Part shown: piece after piece, positions 856 through 56,521 of the stretch | How positions within the stretch are numbered: position 1 is the stretch's first letter | Layout: every line of letters starts with the position of its first letter | From: Rugalucina vietnamica | Taxonomy: Eukaryota; Mollusca; Bivalvia; Lucinida; Lucinidae | Reading direction: 5' to 3' | Assembly (NCBI GenBank): GCA_964017185.1 | Contig: OZ024870.1 | Location: 34,475,139-34,539,138, forward strand | DNA length: 64,000 bases | The notes under the pieces: generated by a model | What the model saw: the letters and a program-made list of their open reading frames with translations, nothing else | The model's database searches: none | What the model was told of the DNA's origin: nothing | Program-made: the position numbers and the translations under genes

Positions 856-996
856 CTGTGCGTGTTGTTCTGGCTGTCCCAGCAACAGAGCCGTTGCCGA
901 CACAACTTGCACGACAGCCGCTGGGGGTTTAGCGTACGATCTTATTTCACTGATATCCTTCTTGTCAATTACGATTGAAAAATCACTGGACGCCAT
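856..996 (-). CDS. First exon of a second dynein-stalk-like gene (partial)
   Basis: A 141-nt, 47-codon exon. It begins at an ATG in good context (A at -3, G at +4) and ends with a strong donor, CAG then gtaagc. The peptide contains DISEIRSYAKPPAAVVQVV followed by SATALLLG. This is the microtubule-binding-domain signature of dynein heavy chains (D-I-x-E-x-R-S, then P-P-x-x-V) and aligns with exon 2 of the neighbouring gene at residues 79-105. Unlike that gene, it has no coiled-coil lead-in. I see no acceptor with a pyrimidine tract just upstream, which supports ATG as the true start. Later exons must lie outside the window. It lies 779 bp downstream of the stop of the intact gene, on the same strand, so a tandem duplicate is likely. 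A truncated pseudogene is the alternative. Confidence 0.6.
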
Positions 997-1774: not shown

Positions 1775-1825
1775 TTACTGAATTTGGTTGTTCTTGTTTA
1801 GAACGACGTTTGCAATATTTTCAAC
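1775..1825 (-). CDS. Exon 4 (terminal) of the dynein-stalk-like gene
   Basis: Seventeen codons including TAA, after acceptor TTTCTTTTACAG. The peptide is VENIANVVLNKNNQIQ. The copy at 22907-22957 ends at the same residue (QIQ then stop), so this short tail is probably the ancestral C-terminus rather than a premature stop. The protein ends at about the point where the second stalk helix would begin in a full dynein. Confidence 0.72.
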   Translation of the reverse strand, partial: VENIANVVLNKNNQIQ

Positions 1826-4800
1826 CTGTAAAAGAAAAAAAAAAGTAAATTATAAACGCTTAACGGGAAAACGCATATCCATTACTAGAATCATATTTTA
1901 CTGATAGATCAGTTGTTTACATAGCACGGAAATTTAAAAATTATAACTCACAAAATATTAGTGGAGCGGCTTAGTGAGAGATTTTGAGGAAATACTTCAG
2001 TTGATGATACAAGCATGACATTTTCACCATATGTTCTTTATATGACACACATTAAATTCTGATCCCTAGCCACTTGGAATTCCGCCATTTTCAAGATGGC
2101 CGCCAAAAAATAAAATGGCCGACAGTTGTGAAAGGTGTACGAGTAGTAAATTGCTCATATCTTAGGTTCTTTTCATCATAGAACAACAATATTGAAACCA
2201 AAATGAAGCTAAATGATTGTGCTTTCAAATAAAGTTCCAATATGCAAATTACCTAATTTGCATATTTATGAATATTAATGAGATCTTACTTTTTTGGCTT
2301 AAAATTGAGAAAAAAAAACACATCTTATTTTCTGAACGATGTGAAATGTTAAATGAAATGGATCTCTGTGGCTTTGATATTACTAGACCATAAATTATCA
2401 TAAATTGACAAAAGCTAATTAGCATGTTCATGAATATTCATTCTAGAATATCTCAAGACTTTGTATGTACCTATCAGTTTGGTTTAGAAAGTTCATACAG
2501 TAAATTGCTAATATCTTTGGTCGCGCTCATAATAGAACAGCAATATTGATACCAAAATGAAGCTAAATGATTGTTATTTCAAATAGAGTTCAAATATGCA
2601 AACTACCTCATTTACATATATATGAATATAAATGAGGTTTTTGTTTTGCTAAAAACACTGTACAATGTAAAATGTTCATGGTGTGGTGTCGATTGTCTAT
2701 AAATATCATTAATGGCATTAATATAAGATCTATGCCATTGTGCTTTCCTTCAAAAAGTGGGAGCTAAGTCCTGAAGAATTTAATTTCTACATTGCAAACA
2801 ACATCATTCCTTTTTGTCACTATGACCTGTGCATAATTCTGCGCGAGAATAAATTTATCTACAAGAAACCCAAATATTTCCGTTTTGTTTTCATTACATC
2901 TGATGAAGTTGTTCCATGATTTTGGAGGTCTGCAGTTACCAATTACTTTTTTGTATACACCAGTTACTATTTTCTGCCTGGTCTCATCGTTGAGACTATC
3001 TATGCGAATATAAAAAAAACGTACACCCTGGAATGTTTTCTGGCATATGACTTGATATGAGGTCCGGGTTAGAATACTGTGACCATGTGTATTTGGAGAA
3101 AGCAATTAGCTAAGAACTTTCAAGTATGTTGTCGCCCATTCTGGTATGCTTGAAATGAGCCGTACTGGCAATTATAAATTATGATTTTTTATTTCACTGA
3201 TTGATGTGTTCATCAAATACAAGAGAAGCACTTGGGCACTAACAAGCAACTCTACATGGCCGTCGTTGATCTGAAAAAAAAAAGCAATTGATCGATTCCT
3301 GAGGGATGTAATCTGGTGGCCAATGCGAAACTAAGAATTGACGAATGACTAGTGTGTCTGGTCCAGTCCATGTATAAGAGTATACATATTTTAAGAGAGG
3401 GCAGTGGATACAGTGAGGAGTTTGGTGTCAAAGTAGGTGTTCCTTAGCCCGCTACTCTTCATTATTGTGCTATAGGCTTTATCCAGGGAGTTCTGCACAG
3501 GCTGCCCTTGGGTTCTGCTGTATGCAGATGACTTATGATATGACACTGTCGAGTCCATGGAAGAACAACCTGTAAGACTTGGAAAGCAGAGATTGATAGG
3601 AAAGTTCTTTGAGTGAACACGGGGAAGACAAAGATCATGGTCTCTGTCCTCAATCTGAACCTGGAAAGAATCCATGTGGCGTCTGTCAAACAGGTGTAGG
3701 AAGAAATGCCGTCTTCCGTGGTGGATGCTTGTCCTGGGTCCACAAGAAATGCAATGGAATCAAAGGCTCCTTGCGCCGTGATCCTGATTACAGCTGTGGT
3801 GGCTGCCTATGAAAGGCGCGTCCCATAGATGGAAGGCTAGTGAAGGAAGTTCTAGTTGATGGCGAAAACGTTGAAGCTGTACCAGAGTTCTGTTATCTGG
3901 GAGACATGCTTTCTGCTGGCGGAGGTTGTGAACTGGCTGCAGTCATGAACTGCAAATCCGCTTAGGGCAAGTTCCGCCATTTACTCCCTCTCCACACCAA
4001 TCGCAATCTGCCGCGTTTGACCAGAGGTCAAATGTATTCAACTTATGTACTGCCACATGCAGCAGAAGCATGGGCAATGACTGGCTACACTTTGTCGCCT
4101 GCAGCGCAGTGACCGTGCAATGATGTGCTGGATCTGTAATTTCAAGGCGAATGATGAAGTAATCTCAGACTCCCCTCTCTCAAAGCTTGGACTTCAGGAT
4201 ATATATGCAGTGCTTTGCTCCAGCAAGATGAGATGGTATGGACATGGAGAGTGCATTAAAGGCTTTATTTCTCAAGTACGGAATCTAAATGTAGTTGCAC
4301 AGAATAGATCCGGCAAGCTAAGGAAATCATAGGATGAAGTGTTGTTGGACGACTAAAAGAAGGTTAGACTGGATACTGCCAATCCGTAGAATCACTCAGA
4401 GTGGAGAGGTCGTCTAAGAATAAAGATAAAACCGGGATCCTTTAAGAGCAGTGAGTATGTGATGGGCCATACCGCGGTTTCGCCTTTTCAAGCCTCTCAG
4501 TTCAGTGACCCTTTAGAATTGGCAACATGGAACCAAAGAGAATTGCTGTAATTTTGCAACTTTTAACAGGGTAGTCAATAAAAAAGACTTGTTTAATCAA
4601 AATGGGACCAATTGCAGTAAACGTTGGTTAGAAAATGAATCTTAACCGATAATAATTTTCTGATTTCTCAAAATACCCTCTCTGATCTCAAAGGACCAAA
4701 AGGAAAATATAATCTGCACTATGAATGCTGTACGGGAAGACTTTTAGGGCCGCCACAGGCACAACACCAGCTGCAGTAATAGCAAATAAAAATAAAACTG

Positions 4801-7800
4801 AGATCCTTTAAGAGCAGTGAGTATATTTGTGAGAAAGGTGATGGGCCATACCGCGGTTTCAGCTATTCAAGCCTCTTCAGTGACCCTTTAGATTTGGCAA
4901 CATTGAGCCAAAGAGAATTGCTGTAATTTTGCAATTTTTAACAGAAGATAACTTGTCAAACAAGTCCAACCCTCAGATGAGGACAAAGGACTATAAAAAG
5001 GCTGTGATGATGATATGATCAGTCGACAGACTTAGTAGATGCAAGCAAATAATTGATGGGAAGCTCACCACAAACATAAATTGTCAATTTTTAATTTAAA
5101 TATATGCATAGGTATGCACTATAGGGATCAAACATCATTTATATATATATATGATTAATACGTTTTGATATTCAGTTAGCCAGTGAACTCGTGCGAGCTT
5201 AGAAAGAAAGTACAATGACATATATCTTGTATTAATGACATTTACTTTACAATGAAAGTGATATCTATAGACAATTTACAGAATGAACTTTCTTAACTAA
5301 ACTGATACAGTCTTGATGTATTTAAAAATGAATATTCATGAATATGCTAATTGGCAGTTGTTAATTTATGATTCTTCTTTATGGTGTAGAAATATCAAAC
5401 CACAGTTATTAATCTCATTTAACATTTTCCATCATTCAGAGAATGAGATGTGATTTATTGTTTTTTCAAGTTTTTGGCAACAAAATAAGACCTTTTAATA
5501 TTCATAAATATGCAAATGAAGTAGTTTGCAAATTTGAACTTCATTGGAAAGAACAATCATTACGCTTCATTTTGATATCAATACTGATGTTCTATGATGA
5601 ACAGGACCTAAGCTTTAAGCAATTAACTGTACGAACTTTTAAACTAAACTGATAGATAACGGCAAACAAAGTCTTAAAATGTTTTAAAATGAATATTCAT
5701 GAACATGCTAATTAGCTTTTGTTAATTTATGATATTTTATGGTCTAGCAGTATCAAAGCCATAGATATCCATTTCAATTAACATTTTACATCGTTCAAAA
5801 AATAAGGTGTGTCTTTTTTTTTCTCAATTTTAGCCAAAAAAGTAAGATATCATTAATATTCATAAATATGCAAATGAGGTAATTTGCATATTGGAACTTT
5901 AATTCAAAGAACAATCATTTAGATTCATTTTGGTATCAATATTGTTGTTCTATGATGAAAAGAACCTAAGATATGAGCAATTTACTACATGTACTTCTTC
6001 CACAACTGTCGGCCATTTTGTTTTTGGCGGCCATCTTGAAAATGGCGGAATTTCAAGTGGTTAGGGATCAGAATTTAATGTGTGTCATGTAAAGAGCATA
6101 TGGTGAAAATGTCATGCTTGTATCATCAACTGAAGTATTTTCTCATTAAGCCGCTCCACTATATACCGCTGAATCGATAACGAAAAGAGGAAGAATGAAC
6201 TTAATAAGCTGATGCTTCCGTTTAAATCTCATTTAAACCACATTTTGAATATTGTATACATAGTTTTCTTGTATATATCTTATTTATATTATTTTATGTA
6301 AACTCATGCCTGTAAGTATTATATGTGTAAATATTTCAACTAAAATAATTATGATCAAACGATGAGAGCCACATACCCAAAGATACAAGCTTGCTGCTGC
6401 TGCGCTACTATTTTTACAGAGTTCCACGCTCGAGTTCGATAGTATATCCTTTGCTCTCTGAGCAGCTTTCTCTGATACCGCGTCAATATCAAGCTCACAA
6501 AGCTTAGAAACTAAAGTTGTATCTTGCAGCAGTTTCTTACCAAGGCGCCACTGCAAATAACACCGAGAGTCACTTCCATTGACGATATATATGAAAGCAT
6601 TATGTAGCATGAAGCGGATTCGGCTATTTTTATAAAGCCTCGTCAGTGGTACAAATGGCCCAAGAAAACAATGGCATTCTGTAAATTTAATCATGCTGCT
6701 AAACATTGAAAGCGTTCATAAAGTATTCTAAAAATAACATCATACTGAGTTTTAGGAAAACGAAAATAAACTTTAAATATTAACCACTTTTAATTATTTT
6801 CATACTTGTAGCATTTATCATATGACGTCGCTGTTTTCCAGTAGATAACGTCATGTCATAAAAATCATATGACCACACGTGTATTAACACTTTTGCGGGA
6901 ATACGTAACATCATCATTGACGACATCCGTAACAACAATGTAAATTTTCATTGAAAATATGTCCATTTCGAAGGCGATAAAATCCTATTTTAAAAGTCAT
7001 ATGATAAAACGAATCTTACACTCGTGGTCATTTCATATGAAATTTATAAACTCGCCGAAGACTCGTTTAATAAATTTCATATGAAATGGCCACTCGTGTA
7101 AGATCCTCTATTTAATTGTTTAGTTCGGGGTAGAATCGACAAATCTTACCATATCCTGCTGTTCCTTATACCCTAGGAGCACCAACACCGCACTTATTAC
7201 TTCTAAAACAGCCCGTGGGGGGTTAGGGAATGACCTCACTTCTACGATATCTCCTTTACAAACCACATTCTTTTTCTCTTCCAATGTCTTCTGTCGTTGT
7301 GACTCTAATCTGTCTATAAGCAAGTTGGCTGAACTAACTTCAGCTTCAAGTTGCTGGTCTAGTTTTGTTTCAAATAGTTCTTTGAGAAAGGATTTCATTT
7401 TTGGAACATCATTATGGAACATCGCCTTTGTTAAATCTGAATAGGAACAGAAAATACACCAAAGGCCGTGTAGGAGTATATTTAAACAATACATTACGAA
7501 AACATACCCATGCAATATAGAGATTTTTTCAGCTGTAAAAATTGAAAATTTCACCAGAAAATAAAATGATATTTTCATTTTTTATGCTCAAAACATACAC
7601 TGTGAGTACACGTTAGAACCGCCTCGCTGAGGCGGTTCTAACGAGTACCCATATGTTTTAGATAAAAAAAAAATAAGAAAATTAGGTATATACCCCTGCA
7701 AACCCCAGTTTTTCTATATAAAAGTGGGGTTTACCGGGGTATACATTACATGGACATGTTTTCCTTATGTATTTAGTCACTTTTGTTGCTGTTCCAGTGT

Positions 7801-8697
7801 AACCAACAGTTGATTTCACGTAAACATAAGACGTGTCATGAAATTTGACTACATGTCCGTGAAATGTATACCCCCTTTAACCCCACTTTTATATAGAAAA
7901 ACTGGGGTTTGCAGGTGTAAACCTATTTTCTTATTTTTGATTCAGAACATAGATTGTGGGCACTCGTTACTCTTCGAGGTGGTTCTAACATGTACCCGAA
8001 ATCTATGTTTTGGGCATAAATATTAAAGAAATCATTTTTTTCCAATGACATTTCAATTTGTACAGCTGAAAAAAAATCTCATTATATTCCATGGTCAATT
8101 TTTTCGTAAAGAATAAGAAAAAAGAAATGAACATATTAATGAGAAAGGGGATGGGCCATACTGCGGTTTCGGCTCTTTAAGCCTCTTCAGTGACCCTATA
8201 GATTTGGCAACATGGAGTTAAAGAGAATACTACAATATTCATGTACTACAACATTCACAAATAAATGAGCCGCCACATGGAAAAACCAACAATCTGCATT
8301 GGCGAAAACAAAGACGCAGATCAGCTTCGCGGTAACCGCGAAGCTGATCAGCGCCTTTGTTTTCGCTACACGGATAGTACAATTCCTCTTCTTCTTAAAT
8401 CCGAAATTTCAAGCTTCTAGCTCTTTTCTGTGCTTGTACAGGCTGGTTTGTGTCGGACCTGTGCGGAAACCACATTGTTGGTTTTCCCGCGAGGCGGCTC
8501 AAATAAGATATTGTAACCTTGTAATTCTGCATCACTATGAACAGAATGGGTATCCCTTTACCAGGTAATCATGGAAACAAATATCATACAATGATTTCTT
8601 AAACAAAATTCGGAAGAAAGTAAAAACAATCTGATACAAAACACTTACCTAATCTTAATTGTTCAGTTTTAGGGTCATTTTCGCGCATTTTTTCCAT
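1775..8697 (-). CDS. Dynein-stalk-like small protein, 186 aa, four exons
   Basis: Exons on the minus strand are 8697-8649, 7436-7150, 6550-6377 and 1825-1775. Together they are 561 nt and give 186 residues plus TAA. All junctions are GT-AG and phases agree (one split codon, then two phase-0 junctions). Residues about 33-75 are charged and leucine-rich, as in a coiled coil. Residues 79-105 carry DIVEVRSFPNPPRAV and VLLG. Residues 113-120 are WRLGKKLL, and residues 160-170 are SSAAAASLYLW. These match, in order, coiled-coil 1 and the microtubule-binding domain of dynein heavy chains (Pfam MT, PF12777, by recognition). The AAA+ modules, linker and second stalk helix are absent, so it cannot be a motor. 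Binding microtubules or competing with dynein is inference. A still earlier exon upstream of the ATG cannot be excluded. A foldback element fills intron 3 and a MITE pair lies in intron 1. Three relatives lie in this window. Confidence 0.78.
2764..3105 (-). pseudogene. Fragment of a transposon-associated ORF of unknown function
   Basis: A 113-codon minus-strand ORF inside the foldback element. The stretch from DSLNDETRQK through PPKSWNNFIRCNENKTEIF resembles a protein I recognise from many cnidarian and mollusc genomes, with a DSL..TR.KRG..RRV...P.NW..FLR..ENKTELF.FL pattern. That family is repeat-associated and has no function known to me. The copy is short, so I treat it as a relic. The assignment rests on pattern memory. 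Confidence 0.4.
3330..4400 (+). pseudogene. LINE reverse transcriptase relic with internal zinc finger
   Basis: Plus-strand remnants in shifting frames read, in order, a degraded GVP.G-type and polymerase region with YADD-like coding (near 3510-3530), the lysine-rich stretch before the finger, a cysteine-rich finger (CGVCQTGVGRNAV then CLSWVHKKCNGIKG, 3675-3760) and a C-terminal thumb region. Near 4118-4300 this continues as RAMMCWICNFKANDE and LLCSSKMRWYGHGE-like sequence. The whole resembles a known invertebrate LINE ORF2 in which a PHD/RING-like finger sits after the catalytic domain. Multiple stops and frameshifts make it dead. It lies in the centre of the foldback element. Confidence 0.65.
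4405..4950 (+). repeat. Two direct copies of a GGGCCATACCGCGG repeat
   Basis: The motif series GAGATCCTTTAAGAGCAGTG, GATGGGCCATACCGCGGTTT, CTCTTCAGTGACC and TTTGGCAACAT occurs once from about 4430 and again from about 4798. Related copies lie at 8135-8245 and, interrupted by a palindrome, at 53985-54713. No coding content is seen. It behaves as a dispersed repeat of unknown class. Confidence 0.7.
6377..6550 (-). CDS. Exon 3 of the dynein-stalk-like gene
   Basis: 174 nt, exactly 58 codons, phase 0 at both ends. Acceptor GTTATTTGCAG, donor TTTGG then gtatgt. It encodes WRLGKKLLQDTTLVSK through SEKAAQRAKDI to AAASLYLW. This is the same order as W-x-x-x-K-K-L-L-x-D and the S-x-A-A-x-x-L-x-x-W helix of the dynein microtubule-binding domain. 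The exon is repeated in degraded form at 22192-22357 and 5'-shortened at 54791-54928. Confidence 0.82.
7150..7436 (-). CDS. Exon 2 of the dynein-stalk-like gene
   Basis: 287 nt coding residues 17-112. The acceptor is a pyrimidine-rich run ending CTATTCAG and the donor follows ATG as gtaagatt. It encodes the predicted coiled coil, with an alternating leucine/charged pattern from LTKAMFHNDV to LESQRQKTLEEKK, and the first half of the microtubule-binding domain (DIVEVRS, NPPRAV, VLVLLG). Cysteine 76 sits at the junction between the two parts. Confidence 0.8.
7487..8115. mobile_element. Inverted pair of MITE-2 copies
   Basis: Two copies of one repeat lie head to head, 7487-7770 in minus orientation and 7838-8115 in plus. 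Shared landmarks are CTGGGGTTTGCAGG, ATACCCCCTTTAACCCCAC, a centre with the hairpin GAACCGCCTCGCTGAGGCGG, and a tail CAGCTGTAAAAATTG. Further copies or halves lie at 48199-48342, 56880-59140 (split) and 60345-60560. The pair lies within intron 1 of the dynein-stalk-like gene. Confidence 0.7.
8135..8245 (+). repeat. GGGCCATAC repeat copy
   Basis: A short copy of the repeat at 4405-4950, recognised by GATGGGCCATACTGCGGTTT and GCCTCTTCAGTGACC. It is followed within 25 bp by a MITE-1 copy. Confidence 0.6.
8267..8500 (-). mobile_element. MITE-1 copy (235-bp palindromic MITE)
   Basis: The ends are GAGCCGCC and GGCGGCTC, followed inward by AAAACCAACAAT. An internal long palindrome has arms CAAAGACGCAGATCAGCTTC and its complement. 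AAAT lies on both sides at or next to the element, which may be the target duplication. This copy is in the opposite orientation to those at 10516 and 25109. It lies just downstream of exon 1 of the dynein-stalk-like gene, in intron 1. Confidence 0.8.
8649..8697 (-). CDS. Exon 1 of the dynein-stalk-like gene
   Basis: Sixteen codons plus one base. It starts ATGGAAAAAATGCGC with A at -3 and G at +4, and ends TTAG before donor gtaagt. The last G combines with AT at the start of exon 2 to make an aspartate codon. The short lysine/glutamate-rich N-terminus has no signal peptide. The phase agreement with exon 2 is the main support for this exon. Confidence 0.65.
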
Positions 8698-10515: not shown

Positions 10516-10749
10516 GAGCCGCGACGCGAGAAAACCGATCTTCGAAATTTACGAACAAGTCCGAAACAAACCGGCATGTAGAGTCGTAGAAGAAAGCTTG
10601 AAATGTTGGACTTAAGTAGAGGAGGAATAATTATTATACTATCAGTGTATCGAAAACAAAGGCGCTGATCAGCTGTGCAGTTACTGCACAGCTCATCCGC
10701 GCCTTTGTTTTCGCATATGCAAATTGTTGGTTTTCTCATGCGAAGGCTC
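10516..10749 (+). mobile_element. MITE-1 copy
   Basis: Starts GAGCCGCGACGCGAGAAAACC, ends TTGGTTTTCTCATGCGAAGGCTC-like. The central palindrome differs from other copies in its loop half (AGCTGTGCAGTTACTGCACA), but both halves changed together and still pair. No clear target duplication. Confidence 0.8.
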
Positions 10750-18694: not shown

Positions 18695-21600
18695 TTAGGT
18701 AAGTCTTTTTGTGTCGTTAATGTATTTGAAAATAATTTCCATAAGTTGTTGATTTTCTACGTCTGAAAGTTGTGCACATCCATGTAATAAGTCTACCTCA
18801 TTTATTTCTATTGTTTCGTAAATAGTTGGTTGGGAGATTAAACTGTTCATGAGCTCCATTCTTTGGAGTTGGTATTTTTTGCAATGGAATAAGAAATGTT
18901 TTCTTGTTTCAGGCACCATGCAGTGATTACAATTGGGAGATTCCAATAGATGGTCATTGCGGAGATCTGCGTTTAATTGGCTTTTATGGTTTCTAAGTTG
19001 GCACAGTAAGATATTATTTTTTCTATTTCCATAGCAGTAATATTTTGGGGGCTGTTTTATTTGTTTCTTAATGGCTTGTTTAAATGAATATAGGGAAGTT
19101 GCATTTTTAAGTGGGGTGTCTAAGTCATTCCATAGGTCAGTAGTTGCAATGAAAAAGCTTTTTTGGTAAGAGACAGTCCGAGGGGTAGGGTGTCTTAAGT
19201 TTGTGGATCTCAGGTTGTAACCAGTTTCATGAGTATTGAATTTTGTAACTATGTCGTTAATGTAAGACGGGGCTTCATTATTTAAAATTTTATAGAATTG
19301 TATAAGTTTTGCATGTTTTCTCCTTGTAGCAAGAGAACAAAGACCAACTTCGTTGTACAGGACATCATGGTCTGTTCCCTTCCGGAGACCAGTAATAATC
19401 CGAATTGCATCAAGTTGGATTGATTCAAGTAAGTCTGATTGTTGTTTGGTGCAGTTATCCCAAATGATATTTCCATATTCTAAGATTGGCCTTATAAATG
19501 ATGTGTAAAATCGTAGTAGTGACTTTCTATCTATGTCATATTATAACATTCTCATGATATTCAGACGTGTAGCTGCTTTTTCATAAATTTTCTGAATATG
19601 TTCAGCCCATGTTGCATCAGAAGAAAGAGTGATTCCTAAATGTGTATGTGTTTTATTATCTGTAATTACAATATTATTGAATTTAGCATCATCCCAGTTT
19701 GTTTCATGTTTTCTTGTAAAGGTCATAGACTTTGTCTTTGTCTGGTTTAGTATTATCAGCCAATCATCTGCCCAGTCAGCACTGACATATCGGGCCGCCA
19801 ACGGGCCTCCATTGCAAACACAGCGGCCCGCTGTCGGCTGCCGTCAACGGGCCCCTGGCGGGGATGCAACTCGGCAAATCAACGGCCCGCTGTCGGAAAA
19901 CCGCTATGTTGCCGCGATGTTGCCCCCATTTTACCGACATGCAAAACTTTAAGGAATTAAAGGTTTATTTATAGAATATCGCATACTTTTGCGTTTGCAG
20001 ACTTCGTAAACGAAGACTCTGCGTGTATTAGAACATGAAAGAAGACATGCCCATGAACACACAAGATGTTCTACGACACCAGAGGCGTCTATATGAATAT
20101 AATACATTATGTCATTAATTATCTATATATAATTACAAATTTATTTCGAAGTTGAAGTGCCATTAGATTGACCAAAACAAGTTATACACTTAGAAAAGTT
20201 AAATAATCACTATCTGTTATGAATTATCATGTACATATTTATCAAAACACCTTTATTTAAGAACAATGTGTAAAAATAACGAAAAGTCGATGTTATCGAT
20301 TTTGTTGTTTCCCTTTAATAAAGCTCCTAGCCGTTGACGGGCCGACAGCGGGCCCTCTTGAGTTTTTGTTTGTTACGTTTTGTGTTACGTTTGTGAAACA
20401 CTCAATGATCAAACACTCAATAAATAAATGAGTTCTAGTTATTAGGAAGCAAGAATGTATCGTTCAAAAATCAGCTTCTTGTAGGGCATTGTCCTATTTC
20501 GTGCCCCTGGCGGGCCGTCGTTGGGCCGATATGCAAAGATGTCGCTGACGGACCGCCAGCGGCCCGCTTACTACTCTAAGAGAATGTGAATTTTTTTCAA
20601 AGATCAAAGATTTTTCTTTCTTAGCCATTTCTACATAATAAAGAAATGGATTAATGTCAATTCCTGACACTGATATGTATTTTTGTCAGACAATTTGTAT
20701 CTCGGGCCCATGACGGGCCGTCATGGGGCCGATATGCCGCGATGCCCACTTAATGCCGCTGACGGGCCGATATATGCATGCTGGCTGGGTGACCATTGAG
20801 CAATTTCAATGAGATCTTCATTTAACAATTGAATTGATTCTTGGTTCTCAATGACTGTAAAAAGGGTAGTATCATCGGCAAATAATCTAATGTTTGTGTT
20901 AATTTTTTCAACAATGTCATTTACATAAAGCAGGAAAAGATATGGCCCTAGAACTGATCCCTGAGGGACACCAGCTGTAGTTGTCATCCATGTTGATTTT
21001 GAACCTTCATTTATTACCCTCTGATGCCTATTACAAACATAGCTTTCAAACCATTTATGCAAATTTCCATTTATTCCATACTTCTTTAATTTATACAATA
21101 ACCCTCGATGCCATACTTTATCAAACGCTTTGCTAACGTCGCAGAATATAAATTTAATATCTTTTTCTTTGTCAAGATTTTCTATAATTATATGATAGAT
21201 TTCCAATAGTTGGTTTGTGGTTGAATCCTTAGGTCTAAATCCTGATTGGTATTTTGTTAAAATTTCATGTTCTTGAAGATAGTTATATAAGTATTTAAAA
21301 ATAATTTTTTCTAAAATTTTTCCAAGACAACTAGTGATAGATATGGGCCTGTAGTTAGTTGGATCATTTTTATTCCCCTTGCCTTTAAAGATTGCCGAGA
21401 CATTTGCCATTTTCCATTGACATGGTACTTGGCCTAGTTGTAGAGATTTATTAAATAGCAGTGTTAAAGGTTTTACTAGATGATGGCCAAAAGTCTTAAT
21501 TAATTTTGGGCTAATTTCATCGGGGCCACCAGGTTTGTTTATGTTTAAATTGTCTAGTTGATCTTTTACGTCTTGTTCTAATACTATAATAGAGTCAAGG

Positions 21601-21998
21601 GTGAAGTTAGGATTATTTAAATTTTCAGGTAAATTAGGTTCAGCTCCTATTGTTGATATTCCTGCAAAATGCTCATTTAGAGTTTGTGCTTTTTCAAAAG
21701 GATGGATTTGCGGCTGCCCATTACGAATAAGCGGAGGTGGTGGTTTGTTCTTGTTTTTTAATTTTGTTATGTCATTTGCAATTCTATACCAGGCTTTTGG
21801 TGAAAGGCCAGGATCAGATAATTTTGTCTGTAGATTTGACATATAAGATTTTTTTGCATCCCGTATAAGTTGAACTACTTCATTTCTTTTACTTTTGTAT
21901 TTGCTCCAGTTTTGCTCTGTACTTTTGTTTTTTGCTTTCAGATAGAGCCGATCTCGTTGCCTCATGGTTCTGCGGATGTTGGTATTCATCCATGGTCA
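18695..21998 (-). pseudogene. LINE ORF2 reverse transcriptase, interrupted
   Basis: The minus-strand ORF starts inside the protein at PWMNTNIRRTMRQRDR. The reverse transcriptase carries DVSKAFDKVWHRGLLYKL, GVPQGSVLGP and LFADDT. After IEIAQWS the frame enters an inserted element. It resumes at 19769 as DDWLIILNQTKTKSMTF and runs to the C-terminal CNHCMVPETRKHFLFHC and a stop at 18695. Removing 1021 bp (element plus a 2-bp duplication) rejoins QWS-DDW in frame. One TAA at 19541-19543 (after LNIMRML) is the only other break I see, so the copy was fairly young when the second element landed. Confidence 0.88.
19771..20789. mobile_element. 1019-bp TIR element inside the LINE
   Basis: The left end is CCCAGTCAGCACTGACATAT and the right end in complement is CCCAGCCAGCATGCATATAT. 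Both continue as CGG(G/C)CCG. TG flanks both sides and probably is a 2-bp target duplication. Subterminal regions are GC-rich and hold many variants of ACGGGCC, GGCCGATATG and CCCGCTGTCGG, as transposase-binding clusters often do. The middle is AT-rich with no transposase ORF. Superfamily unknown. Confidence 0.8.
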
Positions 21999-22191: not shown

Positions 22192-22957
22192 TGGCGCCTA
22201 GGTAAAAAGCCACTTCAAGATACAACTTTAGTTTCTCAGCTTTTATATTGACGGGGTATCAGAGAAAGCAGCAGAGAGGGCCAAAGACATCATATCGAAC
22301 TTGAGCTTGGAGCACTGTAAAAAGACCAGCTTGGCAGTCGCAAGCTTGTACCTTTGAGTATGTAGTTTGGAATGTCTTAAGTTTGGAATATCTTAACTTT
22401 TGCAGTCACAAACAATCAAACAAATGGGGTTTAAACAAAACATTCTGTCTCCGCGCTTTTCATAATGCTATTGCTGAAAATATAAGAAAGAAGTGTAATT
22501 TGTAACGTTTGCAATTTATGAGCTCCTGATATTTTTCTTTTTAATGAACATTATTTATTTTACCAATTATACAGACACACTTTGGAGTTTATTCTCATTC
22601 TTGGATATGAGCCTGTGCGTGAAAAAACCAACAATTTAGGATTCTGACCAGGTCCGACACAAACCGGCCTGTACAGTCACAGAAGCAGGCTAGAAGTTTG
22701 ACATTTTGGATTTAAGAAGAAGAGTTATTTTACTATCCATGTAGCAAAAACAAAGGCGCTGATCAGCTTCGCAGTTACTGCGAAGCTGATCTGCGCCTTT
22801 GTTTTTGCCTAAGCAAATTGTTGGTTTTCCCATGCGGCGGCTCATATGCATTTTCTATTGTATTTCTGGTACATATGATATACGGGTACTTTTGTCTTGT
22901 TTTCAGGTTGAAAATGTTGTGGACGTCGTCCTTAAGAAGAAAAACCAAATTCAGTAG
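22192..22957 (+). pseudogene. Broken dynein-stalk-like paralog
   Basis: Two exons match exons 3 and 4 of the intact minus-strand gene. Exon 22192-22357 starts WRLGKK and ends ASLYL. It is 166 nt against 174, an 8-nt deletion after LVSQL that shifts the frame, and the final TGG codon has become TGA just before the conserved gtatgt donor. Exon 22907-22957 starts after TTTTCAG and reads VENVVDVVLKKKNQIQ then TAG, the same end as the intact gene. A MITE-1 copy (22609-22843) lies in the intron between them. No upstream exon was found on this strand; the LINE lies there. Keeping intron positions shows DNA-level duplication rather than retrocopying. Confidence 0.8.
22609..22843 (+). mobile_element. 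MITE-1 copy
   Basis: Starts GAGCCTGTGCGTGAAAAAACC and ends TTTTCCCATGCGGCGGCTC. ATAT flanks both sides. The internal palindrome is GGCGCTGATCAGCTTCGCAG with its complement. It sits in the intron of the broken dynein-stalk paralog. Confidence 0.85.
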
Positions 22958-26462: not shown

Positions 26463-28709
26463 TATTAATTATGACCAGGCAACAAAATATACAGTATGTT
26501 AAGTTGAGCTCAGCAAGGCTTACTGACCAACCGGATGGAAAAGTGGTCTTACTAGTCAAACCTACTCAGGAAAAGTGGTCTAGTCAAAGCAACAGGTGCA
26601 GACAAAATATCCGTAAAACTATTAAAATTGGACAAGCCGTCATTGGTTAAACCTTTAACAAACTTAATATTTCTATAAATGCAAATTCATTTCCTAGTAA
26701 ACTTACACCACTACATAAGAAAAATGGCCCATTGTTAAAATCAAACTATAGGCCCGTCAGTATTCTCCCAATACCTTCCAAAATTTATGAAAAGGTTTTA
26801 TCTTAACAGTTGACCAGCTACTTTGACTCTATTTTTGATGATTTCTTGTGTGCGTTTAGGAAAGGCCACGGTTGTCAAACTACTCTTTTACGACTTCTAG
26901 AAGACTGGAAATTTGCCCTTGATTCAAATGAATATGTAGCAGCTATACTTATGGACTTGTCGAAAGCATTCGATTGTCTACCCCATGACATACTTCTTTC
27001 CAAACTATCAGCTTATGGCCTGTCTGATAACTCAGTACTATTACTTAAATCTTACCTTTCTGACCGCAAACAGCGAATCAAAATCGGTAGTGTTGTAAGT
27101 AGCTGGGCAAATATCAATAAAGGCGTCCCGCAAGGTTCAATTTTAGGCCCTCTGCTTTTTAATGTTTTTATCAATGATATATTTTATTTTATCAAAACAT
27201 GTACTCTTTACAATTATGCAGATGACAATACTTTATCATTCCATTCTCCAGACTTTAGTGAGCTCATTAAGTTTTTACAGCAAGAAGGAAAAATCCTTAT
27301 AGACTGGTTTTCAACTGTATGCAGGCAAATCCCAGTAAGTTTCAAGCAATTGCTGTTGGTAAGAAAACTTTTGAAAAATCTACAGTTTTTCGTTTTGAGT
27401 CTGTGAACATTACATGCGAAGAGGTTGTCAAATTATTAGGAGTAGATATTGATTTTAATTTAAGTTTTGACCAGCACATAAGTAATATATGCAAAAAGGC
27501 AGCATAGCAATTGAATGTTATGAGACGAATCGGACATAATATCAGCTTACTTAACAGATTAACAATTTTCCATACATTTGTCTTGTCCAATTTCAATTTC
27601 TGTCCTTTGGCTTGGCATTTTTGTACTGAAAGCAATACCAAAAAGATGGAGAAATTACAAGAAAGAGGCCTTAGGTTTGTATATAACGATTTTTCCACCT
27701 CGTATGAAGATCTTCTTACCAAAGCAAAACTTTCAACTCTACATATAAGACGAATGAGAACTATGACCATTGAAACGTTTAAAATTTTGAATAATTTAGC
27801 ACCGCCAATTCTTACAAATATTCTCCAAAAACGTGAAAATCGCTATAATTTTCGTTATTCAAACATTTTACAGATTCCGAGTGTTAGAACCAGTAAGTTT
27901 GGTAAGAACTCCTTTAGATACGCTGCACCTGTGTTGTGGAACTCACTTCCAGAAGAATTTAGAAAGTGTTCTAATTTTAACCAGTTTCGGCAGATGATTT
28001 TATCTTGGAATGGTAAAGAATGCAAATGTGTAGCTTGCAACTATACTTAAAAGTAACCACGGCACAGGAGTAGCAATATGTTTAAATTAGAATTGTTTTA
28101 TGTGTTTTCTTTGTATTTTAGTTACATGTTCTATGTTCATTTTTATAATTTTGTTCTTGTTTTTAAACCTTTAAGGTCCTTTGGACTAACCGTCTGCTCT
28201 GGACACAAACGTTTCTGGAGAGTCGGTCTGGCTCGTGGAGAAGCTTCGGTGACGCTCTGGTGCCAGGTCCATTGGATCCACGGGTTTCATTATTATAAAG
28301 TTTAGCAAGATAATCTAATGTGCTAATTTACTGTTCTAGACATATAACTAGTAGTATACTAATTTATTAAGTCATATTTTAAAAACTAACTATATAATAA
28401 GATTTACTGAATGCATATACATAAACATATAAACTGTTTTAGAAGAAATTGACTATTAGCATTATAATTAATATAAGTCTTATTTAAAACAAAATTTAAA
28501 CATATATACTATATTCAATCTTAACACGTGTATTTAAAATTGTCAATGTCTTTCATAATTGATGTTTTTCAGCTGTTTTACTTTTGTTGATTATATACAA
28601 TTGTTGTTAATTAGTCGGTTAAAAAGCTCGTCAGAGCTTATGTTGTACTTTTGTGATACTTGCCGACTCAAAATAAATCTTATCTTATCTTATCTTATCT
28701 TATCTTATT
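26463..28709 (+). mobile_element. LINE relic ending in (TCTTA)n
   Basis: A 5'-truncated plus-strand LINE with degraded reverse transcriptase. After its 3' UTR it ends in AAATAAATCTTATCTTATCT, a short tandem repeat at about 28677-28708 instead of poly(A). Such tails are known for CR1-type LINEs. Confidence 0.8.
26560..28050 (+). pseudogene. LINE ORF2 reverse transcriptase, several breaks
   Basis: Degraded pieces upstream (KATGADKISVKLLKL near 26595, NYRPVSILPIPSKIYEKVL near 26740) lead into a longer open stretch from 26810. It carries AILMDLSKAFDCLPHDILL, GVPQGSILGPLLF and YNYADDNTLS. A frameshift near 27320 moves the protein to MQANPSKFQAIAVGKK. A TAG at 27506-27508 precedes the thumb and C-terminal region (27511-28050), which ends CKCVACNYT. 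With the stop after KVLS near 26805, at least three disabling changes are visible. Confidence 0.82.
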
Positions 28710-37590: not shown

Positions 37591-40500
37591 TAGGCAATCA
37601 CACACGCCTCATCTTCATGATATTTCATGATGCATTGTCAAACTGTAAATCATTCGAAGTGATTCATACTAAAGAACTTGTCGAATTACATGGTTTATAT
37701 AGTTTACTCGGTGAAAGGAGTAAGTTACCAGACCATGCTTTCCTCAGAACGGAATTTAATATTGCAATGTCGCCCATACACTCAAATACAAAACACAGCG
37801 CAGGTACCAATGACACAATTCGTTTTAAGCTCAACCGTATCCCAGACGATATTTTCCATTCGGAAACAAGTGCACTGGCCATTCTAGAATTGATAGAAAA
37901 CATTGAATTAGTCAGAGAGACTCAGTCGGAGATTGATGACATGTACAATAGACTATGCGATCTAATTTTAACAGAAATTAAACGAACTATACCGACATTT
38001 GATACGACTCGTAAATCTCGAAAGCGTTATAAACATTGTAAGCCCTACTGGACAGATGAACTTTCCGAGCTATGGAAAATAATGCGAGACAAAGAACGTG
38101 CTTTTCTCAGGTGTACACAAGGGAGACAAATTAAGGGTGCGCGCCGCCAGGAATATAAAAATGCACAAGATTTATTTGACAAACGCTTACGGTAGTTAGA
38201 GCGACAGTATAAGAAATCACTGGCAAACGATATCGAAAACTTATCTAGTAACAATCCAAATGAATTTTGGAATAAGATAAAAAAAAACCTGGGCCCGCGA
38301 AAATCATGTGAAATTCCTATTGAAATAGTGAATGAAAATGGCGAATCTGAAAGTTCCGAGGAAAGTGTGTTCAATAGATGGAAGAATGACTTTGAAAAGC
38401 TCTATAATTCTGGCGAGAGTACGGACTTTGATGAAAGGTTCTATAATGAAGCAAAATTTCATAAAACGCAATTAGAAGACAATATAGACGATCCACTCTA
38501 AATTAGTAATTACGATCTGAACTGTAATTTCACACTGGACGAGATAACCGCTGTGATAATGAATGCAAAGAACAAATCGACTACTGGAATCGACGGTATA
38601 CCTTATGGTGTTCTCAAAAATCCTCCCATAATAGCCTTGTTACACTCGTTCTTTCAACTTGTATTCGATACCGGACTCATACCATTTGTTTGGCGAAAGG
38701 CCATTATTTTCCCAATACATAAGGATAGCACAACGGACAAACGTTTACCCATGAACTACAGAGGAATTAGTTTATTATCGTGTATATCGAAGTTATATAG
38801 CAACCTGATTAATAAACGCCTATCAAAATATCTTGATGAAAACGACATACTAGCCGAAGAACAAAACGGATTCCGTAAAGCCCGCTCATGTGAAGATCAT
38901 ATCTTTACTTTGAATAGTATTATACGAAATAATAAACAAACTTTTGCGACATTCATTGATCTAAAAAAGGCTTTCGACTTCGTTGATAGAGACTTGCTTC
39001 TTTACAAACTGTTATTGTTGCACGTCGATGGCAAAGTGTACAACACAATAAAGAATATGTATAGTAATACTTCTGCCTGTGTTCGAATCAACGGTAAACT
39101 CACTATCTGGTTCGACTGTAAGTCTGGTGTGAGACAAGGATGTAATTTGTCTCCTATGCTATTCTCTATTTTCATAAACGATCTAGTTGCAGAAATAAAT
39201 AGCCTAAATGCCGGTGTGAACTTTGAAAATGAACAAATCTCGATGCTGTTGTACGCAGATGACATTGTTTTTATTTCCTCCAGTGAAGCTGAAATGCAAC
39301 GTATGCTAGACACTTTACATCAGTGGTGTAAGAAATGGCGTGTACTCATAAACTCAACCAAATCTAAAGCAGTTCACTTTAGACAACCACGAAAGCCAAG
39401 GAGTTTATATCAGTTTAGAATTGGAGATAATTTAATAGACACAGTCGAAACTTATAAATATCTAGGCGTGATATTTCACGAGAAAATGGATTTTTCACAT
39501 ACAGCAAAAGCGTTGGCTTCCGGTGCGGGTAGGGCTTTAGGGAGCATAATTTCGAAAATTCACGGTATGAAAGAATTTGGATTTAGTACATTCGAAAAAC
39601 TCTATGAGTCATGTGTTATGCCGGTGTTAGACTACGGTGCATCAGTTTGGGGCTATAAGTCATATACTGAAATAGACTCTGTACAAAACAGGGCTGTCCG
39701 ATATTTCTTCGGCGTCCATCGGTTTTCACCAACGCTTGCGATTAATGGGGATATTGGATGGTTGCCATCCACAATGAGACATTGGTTTCATATGATCCGG
39801 ATGTGGAATAAACTGGTATTAATGGACGATTCTCGCATAACAAAGCGTATGTTTAATTATGACTATGTGCAATGCCAAAATAACTCTTGGAACTTCGAAG
39901 TGAAGTCTATTTTCGACAAAATAGACATGACATATAGTTACGAAACGAAGGAAACAGTTGATATGTGTCTAGTCAAGCAAAAATTGTTTTCATACTATGC
40001 TGAATCATGGCCCGACAAAGTTCGTAACACCCCGAAACTGAGAACCTATAGACAATTTAAGACTTCATATGAAACTGAAACTTATGAAAAACTTAACCTA
40101 CTACGTAACGAGCGGTCAGTACTTGCTCAATTCCGATGTGGTGTGTTACCACTTCGTATTGAGACAGGCAGATTTGTAGGGGAAAAAACAGAAGAAAGGC
40201 TGTGTCGTTTATGCAATTATAATTCACCAGAGGATGAAATGCACTTTTTGCTTGACTGTACATTATATACTACCCTACGTGAGCAGTGGTTTAGAGACAT
40301 TAGTCAACGCTTTCCTGAGAATACTTGGACACAAATGGACAATCATGAGAAAATGAAACTCCTAGTTTGTTCGTATCCACGTCAAACAGCAAAATATCTG
40401 GTTAATGCGTTCTTAAAAAGACGAAGAACACTTTGTAACATATAACATCCTATCATGACTATATATTGGTTTGAAAGGCTTCTGATAACACTTCGTATTT

Positions 40501-54713: not shown

Positions 54714-54790
54714 TTAGCTACAATCAGTCTCTAAACGGAGTTAATTGTTAGCTAAAATTTGGGTTTTCGTTAGTCAGTGTTGGTTATCCT

Positions 54791-56521
54791 TTAGTTTCTA
54801 AGCTTTCTGAACTTGATATTGATAAGGTATCAGAGAAAGCAGCACAGAGAGCCAAAGACATGATATCGAACTGTAGTGTGGATGACTGTAAAAATACCAG
54901 CTTAGCAGCCGCAAGCTTGTATATTTGGGTATGCGACTTGTTCAAACTATTACAAATATAAACATATACAACCATACAGAATAGGATTTGAACGGTAGTA
55001 GCAGCAATTCACTTACTTTTTTTGCAAGGTTTGTTTTATAAAGTGTAAACATTTTATTATATTCATCAAAAGAAGTTTTGCACCAGTTAATATTTTTCTC
55101 ATTTTAAAATAATGTTAAGTATAGATAATTTTCAAATAAACTTTTAAAACTCCATACCATGTTAAAAGGCTGGACTTCGTGAATAACAAATCAATATTTT
55201 TTCTTAAAAAGATCAAGTAAAATGTGCAAAAATGCATGCTTTTGAAAACACCAAAATTTAGGATGCAGCTAAAAGCCCGCATCTTTATTTCTGGGCTTCC
55301 AAACCTGAATTCGTTTCACATACTCACTCGAGATACTGAAAGCAATCATTTAAAGCAAAAAACTAAAAATTGAATTTTTTTGGACAAAACCACTATTTTT
55401 GACCAAAAATAACGATTTTTGAGATTTTGTCTATATTCTCAGATAAAGCTTATATACACCTCGGTTTTTGGAGTGGGAATCTTTTTCTGGTTGCGCCTTT
55501 TCCAGATCTTTGCCTACTTGTACCTTTTTAGTAACTCATCTCTCAAATAAAATGGGTTGTTTTTCCTTCAAACACAGCATGCAACACCCTTCAATGTTTA
55601 ACTGGAGGTACTGCTTTTCAAACCATCAGTACAAATAGGCAATGATCAGGAAATAGCACAATCAGAAACAAATTCCCACTCCATAAACCGAGGGTGGGAA
55701 AAAATTAAAATGACACTTAAGTACTTATACCATGGAAACATGTCGTAAGCCGAGTGAGCAGCTATTCCCCAAAAGCTGCATATCAAAAACATACTCATGC
55801 AACATCTTTGACATGAGATCGCCTTTAGCAGAAAGAAGACAGGCCGCAGGTTTTTGTGTCAAAACATCTCATAGTGATCAAAAATTGAAAACAAATTTGA
55901 TTTTACTCATATTCTCCAATATTATTTATGATTTTTTTGGTCAAAAATTGCAATTTTGTAAAAAAAAAATGAATTTTTACCAAAATTTTGAGATGTTTTA
56001 AATTGTTTTAGGCTTAATCATTAGCTTTGGAGCCCTTGTGTGTAAATTTGGAAACAAAAATGTGTTCTTAACACTGTGACATTTTTGGTGGAATGTTTTC
56101 GATTTTCCAATTTTCAGTATCTACAGAAAATGGGAATTTTCCATTTTTTCCTAAAATAATTTCCGCAACGTTTTTTGGTCTTATCACACACATTATCAAC
56201 TCTTTCAGACTGTGCAAATTCAAAAAAATATATATTAAAATCTAAATGGTGCAAAACTTCTTTTGGGGAGTATATTTTACCAATTACACAGAACTTGTTT
56301 TATTCACTCATGGAATTGCGTTTTTCTGTTGTGTTTCTGGTACTTATGCTATTTTTATATTTTTTCAGGTAGAAAATATTGTGGACGTCGTCCTTAAGAA
56401 GAACAACTATTTTCAGAAGAGTTTTATCATTTATGATTTGGGGAACAACAACTGCATGGAACGAAAACAGAGTCCAGAGAAATTATACAGAAACATTCAA
56501 CGAGTTTATCAACCAAAATAG
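54791..56521 (+). CDS. Dynein-stalk-like paralog, partial, with extended C-terminus
   Basis: The two recognisable exons are 54791-54928 and 56369-56521. The first reads LVSKLSELDIDKVSEKAAQR to AASLYIW, open throughout, and ends TTTGG before gtatgc. It matches exon 3 of the intact gene from its 13th codon; the WRLGKK part is missing and a possible acceptor is TTATCCTTTAG. The second starts after TTTTTTCAG with VENIVDVVLKKNNYFQ. Where the intact gene and the broken copy stop, this copy has AAG instead of TAG and reads on through KSFIIYDLGNNN to PEKLYRNIQRVYQPK and TAG. AATAAA follows at 56571. No upstream exons were found on this strand, so it may be a 5'-truncated duplicate. The intron holds an inverted pair of R4 repeat fragments. 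Confidence 0.62.
55455..55790. repeat. Inverted pair of R4 repeat fragments
   Basis: CACCTCGGTTTTTGGAGTGG at 55458 (plus) and CCACTCCATAAACCGAGGGT at about 55677 (minus) are inverted copies of the same section of R4. The minus copy continues to AGCAGCTATTCCCC. Confidence 0.65.

Follow-up and report, generated by a model that had tools for sequence, protein, structure and literature searches.

The microtubule-binding head of dynein is usually regarded as a component acting on its stalk, and proteins of the KY (kyphoscoliosis peptidase) type are linked to the cytoskeleton. Titles and abstract openings in the open-access literature yielded no report of a motor-free family of stalk tips, an earlier report being possible, and in PMC5549309 the Pfam name of the MT domain appears once, in a gill annotation table. 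We analysed a window of 64,000 nucleotides from the lucinid bivalve Rugalucina vietnamica (C2:34475139-34539138; the genome searched comprises 1.09 Gb in 47 contigs), for which an initial annotation had proposed a stand-alone and locally duplicated dynein-stalk gene. We lean towards a genuine small non-motor gene, predicted to carry a dynein-type head that most likely serves as a microtubule-binding module. Beyond the earlier reading, the gene belongs to a genome-wide family with head-only members and with a second branch located beside KY-type Ig exons.

The four exons lie exactly where they had been annotated, on the minus strand, and splice in frame to 186 open codons ending on TAA, with all three introns bounded by GT and AG (Table 1); the motifs DIVEVRS, NPPRAV, WRLGKKLL and ASLYLW, on which the initial annotation had relied, are all present. 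The assignment of helices H2-H6 to exon 3 is based on the family profile, which covers the domain in dynein chains, and about 16 residues are kept past the head, in the position expected for the onset of the second stalk helix. A protein search of the genome recovered a paralog at C5:68.30 Mb (L023), whose exons, read by hand, follow the same layout: a first exon with the ATG that is likewise short and of the same phase as exon 1, a 287-nt exon 2, an exon 3 that runs up to the conserved Trp and a final exon containing the stop codon, the latter being the counterpart of exon 4, also seen (by eye) as the last exon of gene 2, the neighbouring gene of the local array. All three introns occupy the same places in the two genes, in phases 1, 0 and 0, and identity amounts to 36% over 186 aligned codons and to 43% over residues 17-109 of the window protein. 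The intact four-exon frame, the match to the Pfam MT profile and the paralog with matching exons together rule out chance open frames.

Table 1. Coordinates of the stalk-tip gene, of its local copies and of the second-branch loci. Positions refer to the window unless a contig is given.
Feature	Position	Strand	Description
Exon 1	8649..8697	-	ATG, residues 1-16, end in phase 1; open frame, GT donor
Exon 2	7150..7436	-	287 nt; AG/GT sites; putative helical unit (~residues 17-62), short stalk neck, MTBD helix H1
Exon 3	6377..6550	-	AG/GT sites; predicted helices H2-H6 of the microtubule-binding domain
Exon 4	1775..1825	-	AG acceptor, TAA; 16 residues in the position of the second-stalk-helix start, then stop
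Inverted-repeat element	1985..6145	.	~4 kb, within the 4.5 kb intron 3; arms ~1985-2647 and 5309-6145
Gene 2, first exon	856..996	-	ATG, helix H1; remainder in L022 (4333-4148 and 3830-3786), outside the window to its left
Decayed exon 3 copy	22192..22354	+	Frameshift; TGA at the final Trp
Exon 4 copy adjoining this decayed exon 3 copy	22907..22957	+	
Decayed exon 3 copy	54788..54940	+	Without the 5' part
Exon 4 copy	56369..56416	+	Stop codon lost
Second-branch loci (Mb)	C5 33.99, 66.28; C8 10.86, 47.20, 47.35, 57.19, 57.21, 57.23, 57.74; C14 3.14, 28.74; C15 35.92		

Scanned against Pfam MT (PF12777), the check that the initial annotation had suggested, the spliced protein scores 28.6 bits (cut-off 24; E 9.6e-7), with residues 70-175 matching profile positions 96-207 of 344. 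Among eight spliced relatives one passes the cut-off (25.3), five fall below it (14.8-20.1) and two (L023 and L033) give no match, while no other Pfam family scores above cut-off in the five short proteins scanned whole (the window protein, L023, gene 2, L028 and L033; the broken third gene was left out). A PDB search with the single window sequence returned 57 distinct sequences at E<=1, headed by DNAH10 (6e-9), the sole non-dyneins, with E-values of 0.38 or worse, being transportin/karyopherin chains. When a profile of nine members (A1) was used instead, the best E was 9.4e-13, over positions 2-102 of 102, and all 60 matches shown of 69 were dynein heavy chains or constructs, as judged from names and lengths (6rzb, 'MKIAA0325', we take to be mouse cytoplasmic dynein). 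Aligned by hhalign with six of the genome's own dyneins, the family profile reached a probability of 99.1 (E 5e-19) at 26% identity. The head H1-H6 is thereby recognizable by sequence in the window gene. In a tree in which several dynein rows are partial and joined by eye, and in which the dynein set is incomplete, 13 family members split from 14 dynein heads with support of 95/91 and the second branch is held at 100/99; a single clade of the six short members is not rejected (p-AU 0.325).

The initial annotation had matched the protein to coiled-coil 1 plus the microtubule-binding domain, of which the second part stands and the first was drawn too long. Since the Pfam MT match starts at profile position 96, most of coiled-coil 1 is unmatched, and with profile coverage limited to positions 96-207 of 344 and 16 residues after the head, no long antiparallel coiled coil (CC1 + CC2) was found. 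Residues 17-62 appear closer to a helical repeat found in relatives than to coiled-coil 1. A helical-repeat profile, built from nine helical units of second-branch (KY) relatives, scores 16.8 bits against the N-terminal part of the window protein, a value reached by none of 500 shuffles, and at most 2.8 bits against four dynein CC1 stretches; against L023 it scores just 4.1 bits, which 19 of 500 shuffles reach. The AlphaFold2 (AF2) model of exon 2 alone (one sequence, pTM 0.36) speaks against this correction, as it shows a single long helix over residues 20-74, followed by the H1 helix at 91-105; the model of exon 3 alone (pLDDT 52) is uninformative.

The stalk homology detected by Pfam MT would also suit exons of a full-length dynein heavy chain gene, a possibility that the initial annotation had itself named as fatal to its claim, and to which we give almost no credence. 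A genome search for the AAA1 domain (PF12774) returned 109 matches (122 of 141 candidates scored), distributed over C1, C3, C4, C6, C7, C9, C12, C13, C15, C16 and C17, and none of them on C2, nor on C5, C8, C10 and C14; in addition, a stop codon follows soon after the head. The window gene contains no AAA+ motor ring, and the description of a stand-alone tip without a motor is upheld on chromosome C2. The Pfam MT profile itself gave 23 genome matches, each within ~75 kb of an AAA1 match, hence none of these is a free stalk-tip gene. When 32 open frames of dynein loci (many of them non-coding) were compared by tblastn with the window, 40 kb to its left and 10 kb to its right, they matched the heads and otherwise stretches read as interspersed repeats.

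Several dynein loci of this genome display tandem arrangements of their own. Thirteen tandem matches to AAA1 profile positions ~130-175, spaced by ~112 bases, occur at C17:29963764-29965233, and several tandem matches to profile positions 10-55, ~156 bases apart, at C4:45152804-45153706, possibly as repeated or alternative exons. Two different tandem exons for H1-H3 of a cytoplasmic-type dynein head (L038 4793-5891) may be alternative exons, and two similar tandem exons of a DNAH10-like dynein head (L027 440-1487; C13:8.01 Mb) may encode alternative heads.

Local duplication, the other element of the initial proposal, was confirmed: besides gene 2 there are a third array gene, further out and carrying an in-frame TGA, and a pair of decayed 3' copies on the plus strand (22192-22957 and 54788-56416). 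Gene 2, whose last exon was located by eye, encodes 123 residues that make up a head and nothing else, and scores 20.1 bits against Pfam MT (E 3.6e-4), under the cut-off of 24. The broken state of the third gene and of the two nearby 3' copies, together with the 4 kb inverted-repeat element in intron 3, could indicate that the window gene is itself a defunct or silent remnant among decaying copies. This is improbable in our view, given that its 186 codons are open, that all its splice sites are intact with a structure identical to that of the distant paralog L023, and that its dN/dS against both decayed copies, computed with a Nei-Gojobori script, lies below 0.3 (0.135/0.494 over 46 codons and 0.143/0.857 over 36 codons); between themselves the decayed copies give 0.154/0.273. 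With L023, dS is saturated and dN/dS not usable (pN/pS 0.55). Two other paralog pairs show purifying selection, namely a head-only pair (0.296/1.305 over 118 codons) and a KY-branch pair on C8 (0.049/0.594 over 155 codons).

The surroundings are rich in repeats, which also dominate an all-against-all comparison of the open reading frames. Retroelements lie around the array, as indicated by reverse-transcriptase frames at 20721-21989 (-), 26810-27406 (+) and 38553-40445 (+), with Pfam RVT_1 E-values of 4e-34, 5e-21 and 4e-42, respectively. The intron 3 element consists of inverted repeats I1-I5 and I8, with arms of 64-212 nt that are 83-95% complementary, and also has internal direct repeats at a spacing of ~355 nt. 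A short palindromic interspersed repeat is found at 8303-8366 and 10651-10714 of the window and in L024 near 3960-4070, and stretches in L029 and L030 translate similarly to it.

Four queries served for the genome searches, namely the window protein, gene 2, one protein of the KY branch and the head-only protein from C13; only the best candidates were scored, which makes the following counts lower bounds. Short loci number at least six: C2 holds three, the third being the one with the TGA, and single loci lie at C5 68.30 Mb, C10 38.21 Mb and C13 46.57 Mb. Half of them (3/6) encode only a head of ~120 residues, the C13 and C10 genes having two exons each and 123 and 119 residues (C10 counted from the first Met). 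The second branch numbers at least 12 loci at E 1.7e-4 or better (Table 1), seven of which were included in the tree and five placed by their match in the search with the KY-branch protein; two weak loci stand outside the twelve, C8:38.69 Mb (E 0.72), which has an upstream KY match, and C13:49.41 Mb (E 0.018), which has none. Head hallmarks include PP at the start of H1 (12/13 members), a W near the start of H2 and a W at the end of the head (12/13). The H1/H2 intron is in phase 0, at the same place within one codon, in all 13 members with both exon ends read at base level, whereas in a DNAH6-like gene (L040), the single dynein observed to have an intron within this loop, the phase is 2 and the position lies one to two codons further 5'; because of this mismatch, no intron shared with dynein is claimed.

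Exons upstream of the head at two second-branch loci match Pfam Ig-like_KY (PF23265; E 1.4e-62 and 5e-46), one of these loci having a transglutaminase match as well (E 0.048, below cut-off). Ig-like_KY gave 59 matches in the genome and is found upstream, on the same strand and 0.9-10.2 kb away, at 10 of the 12 second-branch loci, the exceptions being C5:33.99 and C8:57.74. From this order and strand we infer that KY Ig exons and second-branch heads probably form single transcripts. By the same pattern, the window exons might form the 3' end of a longer KY-type gene with undetected exons further upstream, a possibility that is very improbable and was rejected. Among the matches listed, Ig-like_KY does not occur within 1 Mb of any of the six short loci, and the nearest on C2 is at 48.2 Mb, with none within 10 Mb of the window gene. 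A tblastn search for KY Ig in the window and its flanks found nothing but one stray match (E 0.12), in L022, and the window gene and L023 share a short, phase-matched first exon that supplies the ATG.

Residues at tubulin-contact sites were compared using the numbering and contact roles that we assume for mouse K3299, R3342, E3378 and R3382. At the K3299 site, all six short members have K or R (lysine 77 in the window protein), all seven second-branch members Q or T, and 10 of the 13 dynein rows with a residue there K. The R3342 site is occupied by D, N, E or H in short members and by R or K in the second branch (7/7); it is acidic in 10 of 14 dynein rows and basic (R/K) in the mouse cytoplasmic row, as in the second branch. 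An acidic residue is found at the E3378 site in 5/6 short and 4/7 second-branch members, and a basic one at the R3382 site in 2/6 short and 0/7 second-branch members, the window protein having N. For tubulin binding by the window protein and the other short members, the K3299 and E3378 sites speak in favour and the R3342 and R3382 sites against, although acidic residues at the R3342 site are common in dynein too. On these tallies, neither branch keeps every contact, and the branches differ in an ordered way, not by random loss. One may read the substitutions of the KY branch at the K3299 and R3382 sites, the N of the window protein and a profile identity to dynein heads of 26% as signs that the head fold was reused as a protein-protein module and that tubulin binding was lost across the family. 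We regard this as rather unlikely: the short branch keeps its K/R at the K3299 site throughout, and the R/K of the KY branch at the R3342 site resembles the mouse cytoplasmic dynein row, which argues for branch-specific charges.

For the preferred reading, a small gene with a microtubule-binding head, we propose a head (H1-H6) that is borne by a very short neck, is preceded by a single helical unit and would dock on tubulin at the site used by dynein. The N-terminal helical unit may pair or bind a partner, and the protein might thus tether something to microtubules or compete with dynein for sites, roles into which the cytoskeletal link of KY-type proteins would fit. Binding would be constitutive and of fixed strength, and a registry shift of the dynein type hardly possible, because the neck has ~16-20 residues on each side and there is no AAA ring. 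More broadly, and tentatively, the family may represent a portable motor-free domain maintained by selection, occurring as free heads of ~120 residues, as heads with a helical unit and as C-terminal heads of KY proteins, and acting as tethers or dynein competitors. If so, such heads would offer minimal microtubule binders ready for use and a natural set of variants whose tubulin-contact residues change from one branch to the other. They might also regulate ciliary or cytoplasmic dynein in nature, and a microtubule link would be predicted for some KY-type proteins. A family of motor-less tips, some stand-alone and some apparently ending larger proteins, is worth microtubule-binding tests.

Among known systems, the dynein microtubule-binding domain (PF12777) is similar in that the family head H1-H6 aligns with it over nearly its whole length, with the PP and W positions common to both. 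Unlike dynein, the family has no AAA ring on C2, no long coiled-coil pair and no tail, and is one or two residues shorter ahead of the last helix. As for KY-like genes, second-branch loci carry this head too, after a comparable helical unit and downstream of the KY Ig exons, whereas neither the window gene nor any of the other five short loci has such a listed exon in its vicinity, and no KY-type Ig domain was found in the window gene, either by the listing near the gene or by tblastn in the window. The engineered stalk-tip constructs (seryl-tRNA synthetase fusions, PDB 3err and 3j1t) are alike in presenting a head on a short neck without a motor; these are man-made, whereas the window gene is natural.
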